Source: Roseinatronobacter monicus (lineage in GTDB: Bacteria > Pseudomonadota > Alphaproteobacteria > Rhodobacterales > Rhodobacteraceae). From it: DNA of 64,000 bases. The notes below the pieces were generated by a model, which had not been told where the DNA came from, made no database searches, and was given only the letters and a program-made list of their open reading frames with translations. Made by a program: the position numbers and the translations under genes. The stretch covers positions 1,235,001-1,299,000 of the forward strand of contig NZ_VFPT01000001.1 in assembly GCF_006716865.1 (NCBI RefSeq). Reading direction: 5' to 3'. Position 1 is the first letter of the stretch. The number at the start of each line of letters is the position of its first letter. Positions 36,474 to 46,470 of this stretch are shown piece by piece.

Positions 36474-37475
36474 TTACTTCGCCTGCGCCATCGCGGCTGC
36501 CGTATCCAGCATCCGGTTGGAAAAGCCCCATTCATTATCATACCATGACAGAATGCGCACCATGCGCCCCTCCAGCACCTTGGTTTGGTCCAGATGGAAG
36601 ATCGACGAGCGCGGGTCATGGTTGAAATCCATCGACACATTGGGCTGGTCGGTCACGCCCAGAACCCCTTTCAGGGGGCCTGACGCGGCCGCAGCGATCA
36701 TGGCTGTGTTGATCTCGTCGGCAGTGACATCGCGCGCGGCCTCGAATGTCAGGTCCACGACCGAGACATTGGGGGTCGGCACGCGGATGGCGACACCGTC
36801 CAGTTTTCCCGCCAGTTCTGGCAATACCAACCCCACAGCCTTGGCGGCACCGGTGCTGGTGGGGATCAGGCTCATGGCTGCGGCGCGGGCGCGGTACATG
36901 TCCTTGTGCATCGTATCCAGCGTGGGTTGATCACCGGTATAGCTGTGAATGGTCGTCATGAATCCGCGCGAAATACCGACGGCGTCATTCAGGACTTTCA
37001 CCACCGGGGCCAGACAGTTGGTTGTGCATGACCCGTTCGATACGATCCTGTCATCCGCCGTCAGACTGTCGTGGTTCACGCCGTATACGATGGTCTTGTC
37101 CGCGCCCTTGGAAGGGGCCGAGACCAGTACCTTGCCGGCGCGTCCCAGATGCAGCTTGGCTTTGTCGGCATCGGTGAAAATGCCGGTGCATTCCAACACG
37201 ATGTCGATATCGTCCCAAGGCAGTTCGGCAGGGTCGCGGGCGGAGGTTACCTTGATGGGACCGCGCCCGACATTAATCGTGTCGCCATCCACTGTCACCT
37301 CAGTCGGAAACCTGCCATGGACCGAGTCAAAACGCAGCAGATGCGCATTGCTCTCGACCGGGCCGAGGTCGTTGATGGCAACGATCTCCAGATCATCGCG
37401 CTGTTGTTCTACCAGCGCGCGGAGCACAAGCCGCCCGATCCGGCCAAACCCGTTGATTGCAAGACGTGTGGTCAT
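36474..37475 (-). CDS. gap: Glyceraldehyde-3-phosphate dehydrogenase (NAD type)
   Basis: Class I GAPDH, 333 aa, for the central glycolytic/gluconeogenic step. N-terminal NGFGRIGRLVLRA binds NAD; the cofactor residue after beta-2 is Asp (AINDLGPVES), the hallmark of NAD preference. The catalytic Cys is in SNGSCTTNCLAP (about residue 152) and the His in TIHSYTGDQ. GGAG lies upstream of the ATG. A strong palindrome, TGTGTTTGCGCTAACACA, lies 22-39 nt upstream of the start codon. A paralogue with a different cofactor residue lies at 38109-39113. Confidence 0.95.
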   Translation of the reverse strand: MTTRLAINGFGRIGRLVLRALVEQQRDDLEIVAINDLGPVESNAHLLRFDSVHGRFPTEVTVDGDTINVGRGPIKVTSARDPAELPWDDIDIVLECTGIFTDADKAKLHLGRAGKVLVSAPSKGADKTIVYGVNHDSLTADDRIVSNGSCTTNCLAPVVKVLNDAVGISRGFMTTIHSYTGDQPTLDTMHKDMYRARAAAMSLIPTSTGAAKAVGLVLPELAGKLDGVAIRVPTPNVSVVDLTFEAARDVTADEINTAMIAAAASGPLKGVLGVTDQPNVSMDFNHDPRSSIFHLDQTKVLEGRMVRILSWYDNEWGFSNRMLDTAAAMAQAK

Positions 37476-37496
37476 TGGTTTCTCCTCACGAAAATA

Positions 37497-37514
37497 TGTG
37501 TTTGCGCTAACACA
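37497..37514 (-). promoter_or_regulatory. LacI-type operator upstream of first gap gene
   Basis: TGTGTTTGCGCTAACACA is palindromic except for the T-T pair next to the CG centre, and one base from the idealised TGTTAGCGCTAACA core. It shares GCGCTAAC with the zwf site at 8743-8756. Its position at 22-39 nt before the start codon suits control of initiation. Confidence 0.65.
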
Positions 37515-37561
37515 ATGTGGCGAGTGATTTCAAGTGCGATGCGCACCAGCGCAGTTTAAGT

Positions 37562-37975
37562 TCAGCAGATTGTGCAGCCTTGGGCGCGATTTGGGGTATG
37601 GGGCTGATAGCCTGCCGCCATGAGCCGGAAAATACCGCCCGCCACGTCGATCACCGGAACGTCCAGTTCCGGGGCGATCAGGCGCGCCGCGCGCGCTGTC
37701 CGATTGCCCGTGCGGCAGATAAGAGCAACCGGTTGTCCCGGTTGCAGATGCGGTTGCAGCGCTTTCATGAAGCTTGCCGGATCATTGAATGTCAGCAAAA
37801 GCGCATTTGGCAAGACACCGGTTTCAACCCATTCCTGTGGCTGGCGAATATCAACCAGCAAGACCGGAACCTCCTCCAGCTGTTGTGCCGAAGGCTCTGC
37901 CGTATAGACCTGTTGTGCTGTCGCGGGTGCGATAAACATAAAAGCGGCAAGCAGAGACAGGGCAATACGTTTCAT
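37562..37975 (-). CDS. Secreted single-domain rhodanese
   Basis: A 137-aa protein: signal peptide MKRIALSLLAAFMFIAPATA (cleavage near residue 20-21), then one rhodanese domain with DIRQPQEWVETGVLPNA and the active loop ICRTGNRTARA (Cys near residue 96). It ends GCTIC, adding two Cys that could form a disulfide or bind metal. Periplasmic sulfur carrier or redox role likely; partner unknown. AAAGAGG lies 7 nt before ATG 37975. It lies between two GAPDH genes on the same strand without an obvious link. Confidence 0.82.
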   Translation of the reverse strand: MKRIALSLLAAFMFIAPATAQQVYTAEPSAQQLEEVPVLLVDIRQPQEWVETGVLPNALLLTFNDPASFMKALQPHLQPGQPVALICRTGNRTARAARLIAPELDVPVIDVAGGIFRLMAAGYQPHTPNRAQGCTIC

Positions 37976-38051
37976 GAATAGACCTCTTTGATTTAATGAA
38001 TGTGTAACGTGCTTCTCGTGCACGCAAAAGGTGACAAAACATCACAATGAG

Positions 38052-38079
38052 AAGACCCGCCAGCGGGCTGACGGGTCTT
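38052..38079 (-). terminator. Hairpin between second gap gene and rhodanese
   Basis: AAGACCCG / CGGGTCTT (8 bp), a C-A mismatch, then CAG / CTG with loop CGGG. T-rich flanks are weak on both strands (TCTTCTCATT on minus). Likely terminator of the second gap gene. Confidence 0.6.
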
Positions 38080-38108
38080 TTCATTCTGCGCAAATCTGTG
38101 GGGCAGGG

Positions 38109-39113
38109 TCAGTGGATCAGGCGGCCCATCGCAGCGGCCACATCGGCCATGCGGCACGAAAACCCCCATTCGTTGTCATACCATGCCAGTACCCGCACCA
38201 TGCGACGCCCGACAACCTTGGTCTGGTCCGGTGCGAAAATCGAAGAATAGGGTGTGTGATTAAAATCAATCGAGACTTTCGGCTCCGGGTCATAGGACAG
38301 AACGGCCCCCATCGCCCCGGCGGCTGCCTCGCGCACGATCTCGTTGACATCGGCCACTGTCACATCGCGGCCTGCCTGAAAGGTCAGATCTACGGCGCTG
38401 ACATTGGGGGTTGGCACCCGCAGGGCTGTTCCATCCAGCTTGCCTGCCAATTCTGGCAGAACCTCGCCAAGCGCTTTTGCTGCCCCGGTCGAGGTGGGGA
38501 TCATCGCCATCGCGGCGGCGCGGGCACGGTAAAGATCCTTGTGGCGGCGATCCAACGTCGGTTGGTCGCCGGTATAGCTGTGAACTGTCGTCATGATGCC
38601 CGATTCAATGCCGATGGCATCGTTCAGAACCTTGGCCAGCGGGGCCAGACAGTTTGTCGTGCAAGAGCCGTTTGAAACAACCAGATGCTCTGGCCGCAGT
38701 AAACGATGGTTCACGCCGTAAACAATCGTGGCATCTGCGTTCTTTGCGGGTGCCGATACCAGCACGCGGCTAGCCCCGCGTGTCAGATGAACCGCCGCCT
38801 TGTCGCGTTCATTAAACTTGCCGGTGCATTCCAGAACGACGTCTATGCCATCCCAGTCCAGGTCTTCCGGCTCATAGGTCGACATGACCTTGATCGGCCC
38901 ACGGCCCAGATCAAGCGTGTCGCCGTCAACACGAATGGTGCCGGGAAACCGCCCATGCACCGAGTCGTATTTCAACAGATGGGCATTTGTCTCAATCGGG
39001 CCAGTGGCGTTGATCCTCACAACCTCGACATCGTTGCGTGCACTCTCGGCGATATGGGCCAAGGTGCACCGTCCGATGCGTCCGAACCCGTTGATCCCAA
39101 TGGTGATGGTCAT
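38109..39113 (-). CDS. Glyceraldehyde-3-phosphate dehydrogenase paralogue, probably NADP-capable
   Basis: Second class I GAPDH, 334 aa. NGFGRIGRCTLAHIAE at the start; catalytic Cys in SNGSCTTNCLAPLAK; His in TVHSYTGDQ. The cofactor position reads RINATGPIETNAHLLKYD: Ala replaces the Asp of NAD-specific enzymes, as in Bacillus GapB (INASYPSET), and the later position (LDRRHKD) has Arg-Arg where the first copy has Thr-Met. This suggests NADP use and a gluconeogenic or Calvin-cycle role. ATG 39113 is chosen; 15 upstream codons are open but lack an RBS. Two half-operators lie about 90-120 bp upstream. Confidence 0.9.
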   Translation of the reverse strand: MTITIGINGFGRIGRCTLAHIAESARNDVEVVRINATGPIETNAHLLKYDSVHGRFPGTIRVDGDTLDLGRGPIKVMSTYEPEDLDWDGIDVVLECTGKFNERDKAAVHLTRGASRVLVSAPAKNADATIVYGVNHRLLRPEHLVVSNGSCTTNCLAPLAKVLNDAIGIESGIMTTVHSYTGDQPTLDRRHKDLYRARAAAMAMIPTSTGAAKALGEVLPELAGKLDGTALRVPTPNVSAVDLTFQAGRDVTVADVNEIVREAAAGAMGAVLSYDPEPKVSIDFNHTPYSSIFAPDQTKVVGRRMVRVLAWYDNEWGFSCRMADVAAAMGRLIH

Positions 39114-39198
39114 GACTGTAACTCCGCGCTGTGCCGTTGCGTCGGGTATAGCCAGCACAAGGCGTCGAAAAAAGGGCGAAAGCCGACACGAATAATGT

Positions 39199-39894: not shown

Positions 39895-42800
39895 ATGACA
39901 GTGGCGACTGAGACGGTCATTCTGGGTGGCGCGCCCGAAGGCTATGACGCGCAACTGCTTGCGCGCGAGCTTGAGCGGGCATCCAGCAGCGTGATCCATG
40001 TCGCGCGTGATGACAAACGCGCCGAGGCAATGGCACAAGCCTTGGCATTCTGCGCGCCGAATACCAGCGTGCTGCGTTTTCCTGCGTGGGATTGTCTGGC
40101 GTATGACCGTGTCTCGCCCAACCCGGAGATTGCGTCAAACCGGATGGCGACGCTGGCGGCACTGGCGCAGGGGGTGCCGGGTCCATTCATCTTGCTGACC
40201 ACCCTCTCGGCGGCACAACAACGCGTACCTGCGCGCGACGTTGTTGCGCGTGCGTCCTTTCGCGCCGAGGTGGGGCGGCGTATTGATGAAGCGGCACTGC
40301 GCAACTGGCTGGTGCGCATGGGCTTTTCGCAATCGCCTACGGTTACTGAACCGGGTGATTTTGCCATTCGGGGTGGTATTTTCGACATCTATCCACCGGG
40401 CGAAAGCGGGCCTGTGCGGCTGGACCTGTTCGGCGATGTGCTGGACGGCGCGCGCCGGTTTGATCCCGCTACCCAGCGCAGCCTTGAAAAGCTGCAAGTG
40501 GTCGAGTTTGCACCTGTCTCTGAGATTATTCTGGACGAAGCTGCGATCACGCGGTTTCGGCAGAATTACCGGATCGAATTTGGCACCGCCGGAAGTGATG
40601 ACCCGCTCTATGAAGCGGTCAGCGCAGGGCGCAAGCATCAGGGCATGGAGCATTGGCTGCCCTTCTTCCATGACCGGATGGAGACGATCTTTGACTATCT
40701 GCCCGGTGCGGCCGTGATGCTCGATGACCAGTTGGAAGCGGCGCGCGCGTCGCGGTGGGAAGGGATTGCCGATCAGTATGATGCGCGGCGCGAGGCGATG
40801 AGCGCTAAGGGGCGGCTGGACACAGTCTATAAACCTTGTCCACCGGGGTTGCTGTATCTGGATGACACTGGCTGGCAAGGCGCACTTGCGGGCCGGCGCG
40901 TGATGCAGTTGAACCCGATGAAGACAGCGCCGGGGCCGGGTGTGCTGGATGCAGGCGGGCGCGCGGGGCGCAGTTTCGCCCCCGAACGGCTGGCCGGAGA
41001 GAATGTGTTTGACGCCTTGGCCACCCATCTGGCCGCGCGGCGCAAACTGTCGCAGGTGGTGATCGCCAGCCATTCCGAGGGCGCGCGCGACCGGCTGTCG
41101 GGCCTGCTGGAAGATCATGGGGCCAGTGGCGCGCAGATGATCGGATCGGCGCGCGACATGAAAGACGGGCAGGGCGCGCTGTACCTTGCGATCTGGCCGC
41201 TGGATGCTGGTTTTGAAGCGCCGGGCCTGACGGTTATTTCGGAACAGGATGTGTTGGGCGACCGGTTGGTCAGCCGCACCAAACGGCGCAAGCGGGCCGA
41301 AAACTTCCTGACCGAGGCGCAGACCCTTTCGCCCGGTGATCTGATTGTGCATGTCGATCATGGTGTCGGGCGCTACAAGGGGCTGGAGACGATCACCGCG
41401 ATGGGCGCGCCGCATGAGTGCATCGCGCTCGAATATGCGGGCGGCGACAGGTTGTTTCTGCCGGTCGAGAATATCGAGCTGCTGTCGCGCTATGGCCATG
41501 AGGAAGGCTTGCTGGACCGCTTGGGCGGGGGCGCGTGGCAGGCCAAAAAGGCAAAGCTGAAGCAACGCATCCGCGAGATTGCCGACAAGCTGATCCGCAT
41601 TGCCGCCGAGCGCCAGTTGCGCAAAGCGCCCCATTTCACTGCCCCCGATGGCATGTGGGAGGAATTTCTGGCCCGCTTCCCCTACGCCGAAACCGAAGAC
41701 CAGTTGCGCGCCATTGAGGATGTGCTGGATGATTTCGACTCTGGTCGCCCAATGGACCGGCTGGTGGTGGGCGATGTCGGCTTTGGCAAGACCGAGGTGG
41801 CGATGCGCGCGGCCTTTATCGCGGCCATGTCAGGGGTACAAGTCGCCGTGATTGCCCCCACCACATTGTTGGCACGCCAGCACTACAAGACGTTCGCCGA
41901 CCGCTTCCGGGGGTTTCCGATCAATGTGCGGCCTTTGTCGCGCTTTGTCAGCGCCAAAGATGCCAGCACGACGCGCGAGGGCTTGGCCAAGGGTGCTGTC
42001 GATATTTGTATTGGCACCCATGCCTTGCTGGCAAAAGGTGTAAAATTTGCCAATCTGGGGCTGCTGGTGATTGACGAGGAACAGCATTTTGGGGTCGGCC
42101 ATAAGGAGCGGCTGAAAGAGTTGCGCAGCGACATTCATGTGCTTACCTTGACCGCCACACCCATCCCGCGCACTTTGCAACTGTCGCTGACGGGTGTGCG
42201 TGATCTGTCGATCATCCAAACCCCGCCCGTGGACCGGTTGGCGATCCGCACTTATGTCAGCGAGTTTGATACGCTCACCTTACGCGAAGGGTTGCTGCGC
42301 GAGCATTACCGTGGCGGGCAGTCGTTCTTTGTGGTGCCGCGCATCTCCGACTTGTCAGAGATTGAAGAGTTTCTGCGCACCCATCTGCCAGAGCTGAGCT
42401 ATGTCATCGCCAATGGGCAGATGCCCGCGGGCGAGTTGGATACGCGCATGAACGCCTTTTACGACGGCAAATATGATGTGTTGCTGGCCACGTCGATTGT
42501 CGAATCCGGCCTTGATATTCCGCGCGCCAATACGATGATCGTGCACCGCGCCGACATGTTCGGGCTGTCGCAACTCTATCAAATCCGGGGTCGTGTGGGC
42601 CGTGCCAAAACGCGCGCTTATTGCTTTCTGACGACAAAACCCCGGGCGCCGCTGACCCCGCAAGCGCAAAAGCGCCTGAAATTGCTGGCCTCGCTCGACA
42701 GTTTGGGGGCGGGGTTCAACCTTGCCAGCCATGATATGGACCTGCGCGGTGCTGGCAATATCTTGGGCGAAGAACAATCCGGCCATATCAAAGAAGTGGG

Positions 42801-43335
42801 CTATGAGTTGTACCAGCAGATGCTGGAAGAGACGATTGCCAAGATTCGCTCCGGCGAGATCGCGGATGTCACTGATCTTGACGGGCAATGGGCGCCCACC
42901 ATCAATCTGGGTGTGCCTGTGCTGATCCCCGAAGCCTATGTGCCTGATCTTGATGTGCGCCTTGGCCTTTACCGTCGTCTGTCGGGGCTGACAACCAAGG
43001 TCGATCTGGAAGGGTTTGCGGCAGAATTGATTGACCGCTTTGGAAAACTGCCGCGCGAGGTGAACACGCTTCTGGCGGTCATGCGGATCAAGGCGGAATG
43101 CAAGCGGGCAGGTATTGCCAAGTTTGATGCCGGGCCGAAGGGTGTCACGATCCAGTTCCACAATGATAAATTTGCCAACCCCGCCGGGCTGGTGGTCTTT
43201 GTACAGGACCAAAACGGGCTGGCGAAGATACGTGACAACAAGATCGTGGTGCGCCGCGATTGGGCAACCGAGAAAGACCGTGTGCGCGGTGCCTTTGCCA
43301 TTGCGCGCGATCTGGCAGTGCAGGCTGCACTCTGA
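39895..43335 (+). CDS. mfd: Transcription-repair coupling factor
   Basis: DNA translocase that removes RNA polymerase stalled at lesions and recruits UvrA. At 1146 aa it is full length: UvrB-homology region (about 10-330), RNA-polymerase-interacting CarD-like domain (LSPGDLIVHVDHGVGRYKG, near 478), RecG-like helicase with Walker A VGDVGFGKTEVA (about 622), DEEQHFGVGHKERL, and motif VI (YQIRGRVGRAKTRAY), then the TRCF D7 domain. The ATG has AAAAAGGA about 11 nt upstream. A GC hairpin follows the stop. Confidence 0.96.
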   Translation: MTVATETVILGGAPEGYDAQLLARELERASSSVIHVARDDKRAEAMAQALAFCAPNTSVLRFPAWDCLAYDRVSPNPEIASNRMATLAALAQGVPGPFILLTTLSAAQQRVPARDVVARASFRAEVGRRIDEAALRNWLVRMGFSQSPTVTEPGDFAIRGGIFDIYPPGESGPVRLDLFGDVLDGARRFDPATQRSLEKLQVVEFAPVSEIILDEAAITRFRQNYRIEFGTAGSDDPLYEAVSAGRKHQGMEHWLPFFHDRMETIFDYLPGAAVMLDDQLEAARASRWEGIADQYDARREAMSAKGRLDTVYKPCPPGLLYLDDTGWQGALAGRRVMQLNPMKTAPGPGVLDAGGRAGRSFAPERLAGENVFDALATHLAARRKLSQVVIASHSEGARDRLSGLLEDHGASGAQMIGSARDMKDGQGALYLAIWPLDAGFEAPGLTVISEQDVLGDRLVSRTKRRKRAENFLTEAQTLSPGDLIVHVDHGVGRYKGLETITAMGAPHECIALEYAGGDRLFLPVENIELLSRYGHEEGLLDRLGGGAWQAKKAKLKQRIREIADKLIRIAAERQLRKAPHFTAPDGMWEEFLARFPYAETEDQLRAIEDVLDDFDSGRPMDRLVVGDVGFGKTEVAMRAAFIAAMSGVQVAVIAPTTLLARQHYKTFADRFRGFPINVRPLSRFVSAKDASTTREGLAKGAVDICIGTHALLAKGVKFANLGLLVIDEEQHFGVGHKERLKELRSDIHVLTLTATPIPRTLQLSLTGVRDLSIIQTPPVDRLAIRTYVSEFDTLTLREGLLREHYRGGQSFFVVPRISDLSEIEEFLRTHLPELSYVIANGQMPAGELDTRMNAFYDGKYDVLLATSIVESGLDIPRANTMIVHRADMFGLSQLYQIRGRVGRAKTRAYCFLTTKPRAPLTPQAQKRLKLLASLDSLGAGFNLASHDMDLRGAGNILGEEQSGHIKEVGYELYQQMLEETIAKIRSGEIADVTDLDGQWAPTINLGVPVLIPEAYVPDLDVRLGLYRRLSGLTTKVDLEGFAAELIDRFGKLPREVNTLLAVMRIKAECKRAGIAKFDAGPKGVTIQFHNDKFANPAGLVVFVQDQNGLAKIRDNKIVVRRDWATEKDRVRGAFAIARDLAVQAAL

Positions 43336-43413: not shown

Positions 43414-44271
43414 TCAGGGGGTGACAACGTCATCTTCGTCGTCGTCAACGCAGGGCGCGTCATCTGACAACAGACAGCAGCACAGATTGGCAATCGTCTC
43501 ATCATCCGCGAAGGGAAAGTCGATCACAATCTCTTCGAAGTCATCATCCTCAGGCTTGGTGATGACAACCTTGGTGATAGAGCCGATCGGGTCAATCAAA
43601 CCCAACTCTGGGAGCTCCTCTTCAAGCTCCTTGAGTTCGGCCATAACTTCGTCAAAGACGTCATCGAAATCGGGATTGTTTGGGTCGAAACCTTCTGGGG
43701 CTTCAATTGTGATGGACAGGTCAACGTCGGCTTCTTCGCAGACGACATGAAATTCCAGCAATGTTGTGGTGTCTTCGTCGTCGTCATCGTCGTCGCAGTC
43801 ATCGTCGACAATATCGTCGTCCTTAAGAGTGCATTTGCAAATCTTGTCATACAACTTGTCGAGTTTTGACTGATACTTATCGGCCTTGCATTCGAGTTTG
43901 AATGCTTTCTTTTCGCCGATTTTCTCAATCTTTGCGGCCTTGAGTTCGCCTGTCCGCTCAACCTTGGAAGCAAGATGGCTCAAGCCGCGCTCTTCGAGCT
44001 TGTCAGCCTTGGCCTGATACTTGTCCCGGATCGCATCTGCCTTGTGCTGATATTTGTCCCGGATCGAGTCTGCCTTATCTTCATATTTGGCAACTTTCTT
44101 CTCAAATTTCGCGCAGAGTTTCTCGGCTTTCTTTTCCAGAATGTCGTATTTCTTGGCGACCTTCTTCTCAACAAGAACGTGCTTCTTTGCCAGAGCTTTC
44201 TCTGCAAGGTCTTTCTAGAGCTCTACCGCCTTGTTCAGCTTCGTCGCTGCCAGCTTCTTAAAAAAGGACAT
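43414..44271 (-). pseudogene. Unrecognised Lys-rich coiled-coil / Asp-rich protein gene with in-frame TAG
   Basis: From ATG 44271 (GGAG 8 nt upstream) the frame reads MSFFKKLAATKLNKAVEL, then TAG (44215-44217), and continues in the same frame without a stop to 43414 (286 codons counting the TAG). After the TAG comes about 125 residues of Lys/Ala/Glu-rich helix with 11-residue repeats (KADSIRDKYQH, KADAIRDKYQA), then an acidic half with poly-Asp (DDDCDDDDDDED), a Cys pair CKC and a Cys triplet CCC. No ATG or GTG follows the TAG before the coiled coil, so the RBS and start seem made for the whole frame. Either a nonsense mutation or amber read-through. Function unknown. Confidence 0.6.
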
Positions 44272-44499
44272 CGTAAAATCTCCGCAAAATTAACAATACA
44301 ATGCCGCATTATCACGGTTTCGAGAGTCAACAAGCTAGAGAATGGCAGGAAACTGCGAAACAATCGGTTTCGAAAAACGGTTAAATCATGGGGTTAGGAT
44401 GCCCTGTGCGTAGATATGGGTCCGACGTGATCCACGGCGAATGCACGATCGTTCATGCGAAACGCAGGAATCCAAAGGCCCTCAGGAAGTTCGATAACA

Positions 44500-44527
44500 A
44501 AAAGCCCCGGTGAAAACCGGGGCTTTT
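44500..44527 (-). terminator. Intrinsic terminator of ftsH
   Basis: Twelve-bp stem AAAAGCCCCGGT / ACCGGGGCTTTT with a GAAA tetraloop; on the minus strand a T-run follows. It lies 24 bp after the ftsH stop. Confidence 0.92.
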
Positions 44528-44550
44528 CTCTACTTCAGATCACTGTCGGA

Positions 44551-46470
44551 TCAGGCACTTGGCTCTGGCTCTAGCCCGCCATCTTCATCCCCGCGCTTGC
44601 GCCCGCGTGTTTTTGGCACGGCGGCGACAGAAGGGGGGCCACTGGTTGGCGTATCTTCATCATCATCGCCACGATCCAGTGCCTCACCGCGCATCACACG
44701 GGCGATTTCCGGGCCGGTCAGTGTTTCGTATTCCAGCAAACCCTTCGCCAGGTTCTCCAACTCATCCCGGTGCTCGGTCAGAATTTTTTTGGCGGTTTCA
44801 TATCCCTCATTGACCAGTTGACGCACTTTGTCATCGATCATTTTCTGAGTGATGCCGGAATGGTTTGACCCACCGCCATAGTTGCCCAAGTAACTTTGCT
44901 GTTCATTGGCGTAGTCTACATACCCCAACTCTTCGTCAAAGCCGAACTGCGTGACCATCGCGCGCGCAATCTTGGTGACCTGCTGAATGTCGCTTGCGGC
45001 CCCCGAAGTGACAGCATCTTCGCCAAACACCAGTTGCTCGGCCACGCGTCCGCCCATCGCCATGGCGATCTTGGATTTGTATTTGCGATAGCTGACAGAC
45101 AACTGGTCGCGTTCCGGCAGGGACAAAACCAGCCCCAAAGCCCGCCCGCGCGGGATGATGGTTGCCTTGTGGATGGGGTCATGTTCGGGAACATGCAGCC
45201 CGACCACTGCGTGACCCGCTTCGTGATAAGCGGTCAGTTTCTTCTCATCCTCAGACATCACCATCGAGCGGCGTTCTGCGCCCATCATGACTTTGTCTTT
45301 GGCGCTCTCGAAATCATCCATCACTACAAAACGTCGGTTGGACCGCGCCGCCATAAGCGCTGCCTCATTGACGAGGTTGGCCAGATCGGCACCAGAGAAC
45401 CCGGGTGTCCCGCGCGCGATGATGCGCAGGTCGACATTCGGGCCAAGCGGCACTTTGCGCGCATGCACGCCCAGAATACGCTCGCGCCCTTTGATGTCGG
45501 GATTGGGAACCTGAACCTGACGGTCGAAACGACCGGGGCGCAGCAGGGCAGGGTCAAGCACATCGGGGCGGTTGGTGGCCGCGACGATGATAATGCCCTC
45601 ATTGGCCTCGAACCCGTCCATTTCAACCAGAAGCTGGTTCAATGTCTGCTCACGTTCGTCATTGCCGCCACCGTAGCCGACGCCACGTGAGCGACCGACT
45701 GCGTCAATCTCGTCGATGAAAACGATACAGGGTGCATTCTTCTTGGCCTGCTCGAACATGTCGCGCACGCGGCTTGCACCGACACCCACGAACATCTCGA
45801 CAAAGTCAGAGCCAGAGATGGTGAAGAAGGGCACGCCTGCCTCACCTGCAATGGCGCGTGCAAGAAGCGTTTTACCCGTACCCGGAGGGCCGACCAGAAG
45901 CGCCCCTTTCGGGATCTTGCCGCCGAGGCGCGAGAATTTCTGCGGGTTGCGCAGAAATTCTACGATCTCTTCCAACTCGTCCTTGGCCTCGTCAATGCCA
46001 GCGACATCGTCAAAGGTGACGCGACCACTTTTCTCGGTCAGCAGTTTGGCTTTGGATTTGCCAAACCCCATTGCGCCGCCTTTGCCGCCACCTTGCATAC
46101 GGTTCATGAAATAAATCCACACGCCGATAAGCAACAGGAATGGCAACCACAGCATCAGCGTGGACAAGAAGCCCGATTGCTGCTGCGGGCGTGCCTCAAC
46201 AGGGATACCGGCATCCAGCAAGCGCTGTGTCAGGCCTGTATCATCGGGGCGAACTGTCGAATACTGTTGCCCATCACTGCCAACAAAGACGATGCGTTCA
46301 CCGTCAATGGTGACGCGGCTGACTTCACTGGCGTCAACGCGGTCAATGAATTCAGAATAATTGACACTTCGTGCCGCGGATGAGTTCTGCCCTGTGCTGA
46401 ACATGTTGAAGAGCATGATCATCAGCAGAAACAGCACGATCCAGAAAGCAAAATTCCGTGCGTTACCCAC
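44551..46470 (-). CDS. ftsH: ATP-dependent zinc metalloprotease FtsH
   Basis: Membrane-bound AAA+ protease for quality control. Of 639 aa, two spans (about 7-25 and 101-122) flank a periplasmic part; then the AAA domain with Walker A GPPGTGKT (194-201), Walker B FIDEID and the SRH region [21 protein letters not shown]; then the M41 protease domain with the zinc site HEAGH (416-420) and a later Asp ligand. The acidic/Pro-rich tail ([15 protein letters not shown]) is normal. It follows tilS on the same strand, the common order tilS-ftsH. Confidence 0.97.

Follow-up and report, generated by a model that had tools for sequence, protein, structure and literature searches.

An in-frame amber codon in a Roseinatronobacter monicus gene of an apparently modular bacterial family

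On the chromosome of Roseinatronobacter monicus (a contig of 3.77 Mb from a 4.73 Mb genome in 6 contigs), a gene interrupted by a stop codon lies between mfd and ftsH. In the window, i.e. the whole stretch of 64,000 nucleotides that was analysed, its frame runs on the minus strand from 44271 to 43414 and reads MSFFKKLAATKLNKAVEL, followed by a TAG and then by 266 sense codons and a terminal stop (Table 1). The first ordinary start downstream of the TAG in this frame, according to the open reading frame listing, is the TTG at 43983, and a database protein (P0002) has been called from the same place. A first-pass annotation had described one gene with an early in-frame amber codon, a good ribosome-binding site, 11-residue coiled-coil repeats, an acidic, Cys-containing C-terminal half and a start that gene finders would place too late, and this description was borne out on every point. 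In a profile search, the gene matched nearly the full family model across the TAG.

Table 1. Coordinates of the interrupted gene, its parts and its surroundings in the window
Feature	Position	Strand	Remark
mfd, convergent neighbour	39895..43335	+	3' side of mfd is one fixed place of the family
Complete interrupted gene, from ATG to final stop	43414..44271	-	matches family model positions 1-286 of 290, with 1 TAG inside
C-terminal alpha/beta module	43417..43770	-	common to all three N-terminal types
Asp-rich linker	43771..43827	-	border where the N-terminal parts of relatives diverge
Lys/Ala/Glu region with 11-residue repeats	43840..44214	-	counterpart in P0001 predicted as a long helical hairpin
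TTG, gene-finder start	43981..43983	-	189 aa product
In-frame TAG	44215..44217	-	codon 19
Codons 1-18, encoding a hydrophobic, cationic N-terminus (MSFFKKL...)	44218..44271	-	type seen in stop-free relatives
GGAG, ribosome-binding-site-like	44280..44283	-	12 to 9 bases 5' of the ATG
Perfect palindrome GAAAC-N5-GTTTC	44357..44371	.	starts 100 bases before the ATG; sole window site with up to 1 mismatch
ftsH, upstream neighbour	44551..46470	-	same strand as the interrupted gene

Around the interrupted gene a promoter scan found 0 candidates (1.0 expected), 3 terminator-like sites were counted (1.8 expected), and 0 of 5 Rfam matches up to E 1 reached the gathering score; the best of them, RF02621 (BSnc120) at 44499-44531, obtained 28.1 of 114 bits (E 0.00079) and was set aside. 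A 140-codon frame on the plus strand (43975-44397) lies opposite the coiled-coil region and is probably a mirror of its Lys/Glu-rich codons. Further away, at 36474-39158, two neighbouring glyceraldehyde-3-phosphate dehydrogenase genes flank a small rhodanese-like gene (all named by eye).

Downstream of the TAG, identity at a lag of 11 residues amounts to 39.1% over residues 20-145, compared to a shuffled mean of 11.7%, and 0 of 2000 shuffles reach this value; the repeat was significant in three tested relatives too (0 of 2000 shuffles each). The best hydrophobic period of the window protein is 3.68 residues, near 11/3, and its hydrophobic power at period 11/3 was equalled by 1 of 2000 shuffles. 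In each of the 15 proteins tested the net charge of the first 18 residues is positive, and many of these residues are hydrophobic. The hydrophobic moment of this segment exceeded that of shuffles in none of these 15 proteins, the lowest count being 187 of 1000 shuffles with a moment as high.

We searched 37 Roseinatronobacter genomes and 295 genomes drawn from the family for relatives of the gene, using alignment A2 as query for the coiled-coil copy counts. The part after the TAG found matches in 13 of the 37 genus genomes (one of them, G032, doubtful) and, among the 295 family genomes, only in the window's own genome. With A2 as query 22 of the 37 genus genomes matched, and 12 copies matched over the coiled-coil part; ten of these are free of internal stops, and the window copy and that of G027 contain one TAG each. 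In relatives, several of which also adjoin mfd, an N-terminus of the same kind, the 11-residue helical region, the Asp-rich linker and the C-terminal alpha/beta module stand in one unbroken frame. The G032 match (E 8.8e-4, with one TAA; E 2.3e-4 in another search) was left out of these counts as doubtful. The TAG of G027 (locus L015, 1366-2172) is codon 139 from an MKFGK start and sits in a different context, between the coiled coil and the C-terminal half. Among stop-free relatives the nearest is that of G020, with an identity of 66 to 72% depending on the alignment; it occupies the same ftsH-mfd place and starts with MSLLRKLSAKK, while other relatives start with MFFLKKLVAKK, MSFLLKKLLAV, MSFFRSFGF, MPFFRALGF and similar sequences. 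Since the MSFFKKLAATK of the window is of the same kind, the codons before the TAG can be taken as part of the gene. The TAG falls within an 8-residue stretch that is absent from the aligned relatives, so that a strictly equivalent codon, at which the first-pass annotation had proposed to look for a sense codon in orthologues, exists in none of them. The closest named relative of the window protein is P0001, from Roseinatronobacter sp.; of two contig searches for relatives the first returned 0 and the second 7, all from the genus or from Rhodobacteraceae / Alphaproteobacteria.

The gene appears constrained and fast-evolving at once. Compared to stop-free G020, dN/dS is 0.11 over 274 codons on both sides of the TAG, a rough value as dS is near saturation, and most of the divergence between the two may predate the TAG. 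Amino-acid identity to G020 is 70%, compared to 95% for mfd.

On sequence comparison, the gene belongs to an undescribed bacterial family in which the front part is exchanged between relatives and the end cap is kept, often together with an upstream control site. Three unlike N-termini, an 11-residue helical, a collagen-like and a beta type, precede one C-terminal module. A search with this module detected 25 copies in 23 of the 37 genus genomes, a patchy presence; among 293 family genomes from other genera it found 8 copies (of the 295 family genomes 10 match, two of which are from the genus). The window itself matches the module model at E 8.0e-24, partly by construction as it is 1 of the 18 model rows. 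That the repeat region can be separated from the C-terminal half follows from those relatives in which the module stands behind another N-terminus. At the mfd place, the beta-type gene of G018 and the coiled-coil gene of G033 match over 129 C-terminal residues with 63.6% identity and share no further matching segment at E 0.001. Likewise, loci L105 (7040-7927), L107 (7125-7943) and L018 (6954-7841), from different genomes, combine a related C-terminal module at the mfd place with unrelated N-termini, and loci L104 (6483-7487), L106 (7228-8067) and L109 (7225-8091) encode collagen-like Gly-Ser-Arg/Lys repeats before the same module, with a Trp-Cys end.

The 25 copies of the genus are found at fixed chromosomal places. 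At the mfd place there are 7 coiled-coil copies, counting that of the window, and 6 of the beta type; three further beta-type copies adjoin a lysR gene, itself found next to several of the copies at the mfd place, mfd being outside the stretch examined. The rpoD/dnaG place holds 5 coiled-coil copies, and the dnaE place 3 collagen-type copies, with one more (L109) for which dnaE lies outside the stretch examined. Outside the genus, every one of the 8 copies is of the beta type, for which reason beta is possibly the older form. With 70.2 and 38.7 bits, the two collagen types tested exceed the Pfam Collagen cutoff of 27.2 bits. In L104 the His-Xaa-Ser repeat protein model HxsA4 (NF038313) also scored, with 56.7 bits against a cutoff of 55, in residues 111-152 of the repeat; as Collagen matches there too, this was treated as a match of repeats and not as a name. 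A sigma-factor match in L017 (24.4 of 711 bits, E 1.4e-5) is below cutoff and was ascribed to composition. In agreement with the first-pass annotation, which recognised no family, neither the C-terminal module nor the beta domain received a Pfam or NCBIfam name in the proteins scanned. The family was also not named, among the matches listed, in literature titles on Roseinatronobacter, 11-residue repeats/LEA, in-frame stops, type I secretion, collagen-like Rhodobacterales proteins or hendecads.

The putative control site is the rare palindrome upstream of the gene. A perfect copy within 200 bases upstream was present for 13 of the 31 family genes examined, out of 33 known (the mfd-place gene of G031 and the dnaE-place gene of G034 were left out), with about 0.005 expected in 31 stretches of 200 bases at the genome rate. 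By type, it precedes 5 of 12 coiled-coil genes (a sixth with 1 mismatch), 2 of 8 beta genes in the genus, 6 of 8 beta genes outside it and 0 of 3 collagen genes. Apart from those of G001 and G013, the genus beta genes beside mfd or lysR, six in number, lack such a site within 200 bases, and before the other TAG-carrying gene, in G027, the best site has 2 mismatches at -339. In 307,512 bases of the window and the other loci, 4 sites are perfect and 9 have at most 1 mismatch; the number of perfect sites equals that of the family upstream sites in this set. In the whole genome 4 sites were counted against 5 for a reversed-pattern control, which means no genome-wide enrichment of the motif; the remaining 3 genomic sites fall inside long frames. 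Part of the sharing may reflect common descent. Beside rpoD-place copies lie small helix-turn-helix-like proteins (L020, 8089-8475; L021, 8461-8817) that, judged by eye, are possible regulators.

For the intact protein, structure prediction was carried out on P0001 and on a beta-type relative. The P0001 model (mean pLDDT 75.9, pTM 0.45, 13 sequences) has helices at 7-86 and 90-137, a low-confidence linker and then a strand-strand-helix-strand-strand arrangement, and the beta-type model (mean pLDDT 75.2, pTM 0.52, 16 sequences) has an all-beta domain followed by a mixed strand/helix module; at such pTM values the orientation of the parts is unreliable in both. Foldseek searches of the PDB gave 0 matches at E 0.001 or better for the P0001 model, its VIA-align rows being tied long hairpins, and 0 at E 0.001 for the beta-type model, whose best match, a Cu/Zn superoxide dismutase (E 0.073), fell short of that threshold. 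A sequence search of the PDB with the post-TAG part gave 4 matches up to E 1, the best of which, ribosomal protein bL28m (E 0.056), was taken as chance.

From this architecture, the intact protein most likely serves as a structural spacer with two ends. Its N-terminal tip, hydrophobic and cationic, would be followed by a stiff helical hairpin as rod, a hinge formed by the flexible Asp-rich linker and, at the C-terminal end, a folded cap; the rod would be exchangeable, either helical or collagen-like, and expression would be set via the palindrome before the gene. Alternatively, the intact protein might leave the cell by type I secretion, with no signal peptide, and act at the cell surface. This is unlikely in our judgement, despite the collagen-like relatives that pass the Pfam cutoff and the beta-type relatives, which end in acidic and hydrophobic residues as is typical of type I substrates. 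Against it, no type I secretion genes were noticed by eye beside the loci, some of which carry ABC-importer-like genes, and the ends of the other types differ: coiled-coil copies end mostly in Gly and otherwise in Pro, Ala or His, and collagen copies in Cys.

Whether such a spacer is made in this strain depends on the TAG. Probably the window carries a null or near-null nonsense allele of a dispensable gene which is otherwise a genuine family member: in the R. monicus strain, the TAG at codon 19 would interrupt a member of a fast-evolving, patchily present family, ribosomes would mostly release after 18 residues, and the full protein would be absent or present in trace amounts via ordinary leakiness. 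TAG accounts for 59 of the 117 single-step routes to a stop in G020 and for 53 of 86 in G009; it is therefore the likeliest type of nonsense codon in such genes, and two TAGs in the family need no special cause. No CTA anticodon was present among the 41 tRNAs found, an incomplete list in which tRNA-Tyr is also missing, and the 141 bases around the TAG show no RNA structure (z 0.34; 120 of 200 shuffles fold as well), so that programmed read-through is not supported. Of the two explanations in the first-pass annotation, a nonsense mutation is the better supported, as stop-free relatives exist and the only other TAG among the 12 coiled-coil copies lies elsewhere in the gene; read-through yielding two products has gained no positive evidence. 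Among 11 window genes checked (named by eye), 0 end in TAG. The intact palindrome before the gene counts against a null allele.

The TAG could instead be maintained, being common to the window strain and to that of P0002, with read-through at a low rate throttling the full protein without abolishing it. P0002 also has 189 residues, of which 177 (94%) are identical to those of the window product and 12 differ. As a gene finder would be expected to take the ATG of an open frame, a stop or frameshift probably lies upstream in its strain as well, and the start call suggests, without proving it, that the stop is shared. Both proteins are equally distant from P0001 (137 of 185 residues identical each), which implies no accelerated change on either branch; if the P0002 strain has the same TAG, the frame outlived some divergence without decay, as fits a product that is still useful. 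The nearest TilS, P0015, which was sought to date the split from the P0002 strain, is 92% identical (383 of 417); it may come from another organism than P0002, and clustering at 90% may hide closer copies, so that it provides no date. In a survey of in-frame stops in bacterial genes (PMC7918605), many of them are reported to be under purifying selection, and such stops are also said to persist mostly for short times. The cases given there resemble the present one in having a stop inside an otherwise conserved frame, and they differ in that the stop occupies one position in two or more species, whereas here the sharing is deduced from a start call. Together with the perfect palindrome, the start and the equal distances of P0002 favour maintenance; the missing CTA-anticodon tRNA in the incomplete list, the unstructured RNA, the different position of the TAG in G027, the usual short life of in-frame stops and the fact that P0002 was compared at the protein level weigh against it, and we regard a maintained amber codon as improbable. 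We hold out still less prospect for the wider proposal which joins both subjects, namely a three-place cassette family (mfd, rpoD/dnaG and dnaE) with a fixed cap, a swapped helical, collagen or beta front and often one dedicated palindrome, in which the window rod would in addition be throttled by an amber codon kept in two diverged strains.

It is quite unlikely that the strain makes only a shortened protein, consisting of the second part of the hairpin and the cap, from the TTG at 43983 or another start. The frame downstream of the TAG is open and conserved, and gene finding picks this TTG here and in P0002. However, the aligned relatives have Phe (G020, G002, G009, G011, G353 and P0012), Met (G033) or Tyr (G034) at this codon, and with Phe in most of them the start is not inherited. 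Moreover, in the comparison with G020 the constraint is alike between TAG and TTG (dN/dS 0.157) and in the segment that follows (0.145), although these values are rough with dS near saturation and the comparison may mostly predate the TAG. A one-base sequencing or assembly error is the least probable explanation: a single base decides, and the TAG is seen in assembled sequence only, but the genome is assembled in few contigs with a completeness of 100, and P0002, by its differences from another strain, was also called short.

If the gene is taken as a nonsense allele, the stop codon by itself is ordinary, and it is the modular family and its upstream palindrome that merit attention. Should the rods prove to be interchangeable parts governed by a single regulator, the family would constitute a small natural experiment in haloalkaliphilic bacteria, in which a helical and a collagen-like rod are swapped. 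The locus also illustrates that one stop codon is enough for gene finding to miss the N-terminal half of such a gene.

Among known systems, the repeat region resembles Apolipoprotein (PF01442) and LEA_4 (PF02987) in its 11-residue periodicity, a feature of Apolipoprotein A1/A4/E and LEA_4, and in its Lys/Ala/Glu helices; unlike these, the window family adds an Asp-rich linker and an alpha/beta cap. With PF01442 (cutoff 90 bits) the window protein scores 14.1 and the best of 10 relatives 28.0, and PF02987 (cutoff 51.1 bits) matches 1 of 10 relatives (P0003, 14.5 bits) and not the window protein. The lipid- or surface-binding helices proposed in the first-pass annotation thus find an echo in Apolipoprotein matches, all of them below cutoff, and the amphipathicity of the first 18 residues does not exceed that of shuffles. 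In its long helical hairpin, as predicted, and the short segment at the N-terminal side of it, the family may resemble PspA, Vipp1 and ESCRT-III. PspA and Vipp1 possess an amphipathic N-terminal helix, whereas the first 18 residues of the proteins tested here are not more amphipathic than shuffled sequences. Finally, the dnaE-place relatives share Gly-Ser-Arg/Lys triplets with bacterial collagen-like proteins (PF01391), above cutoff in both cases tested; the window gene is without collagen repeat, and its C-terminal module is the same as theirs.
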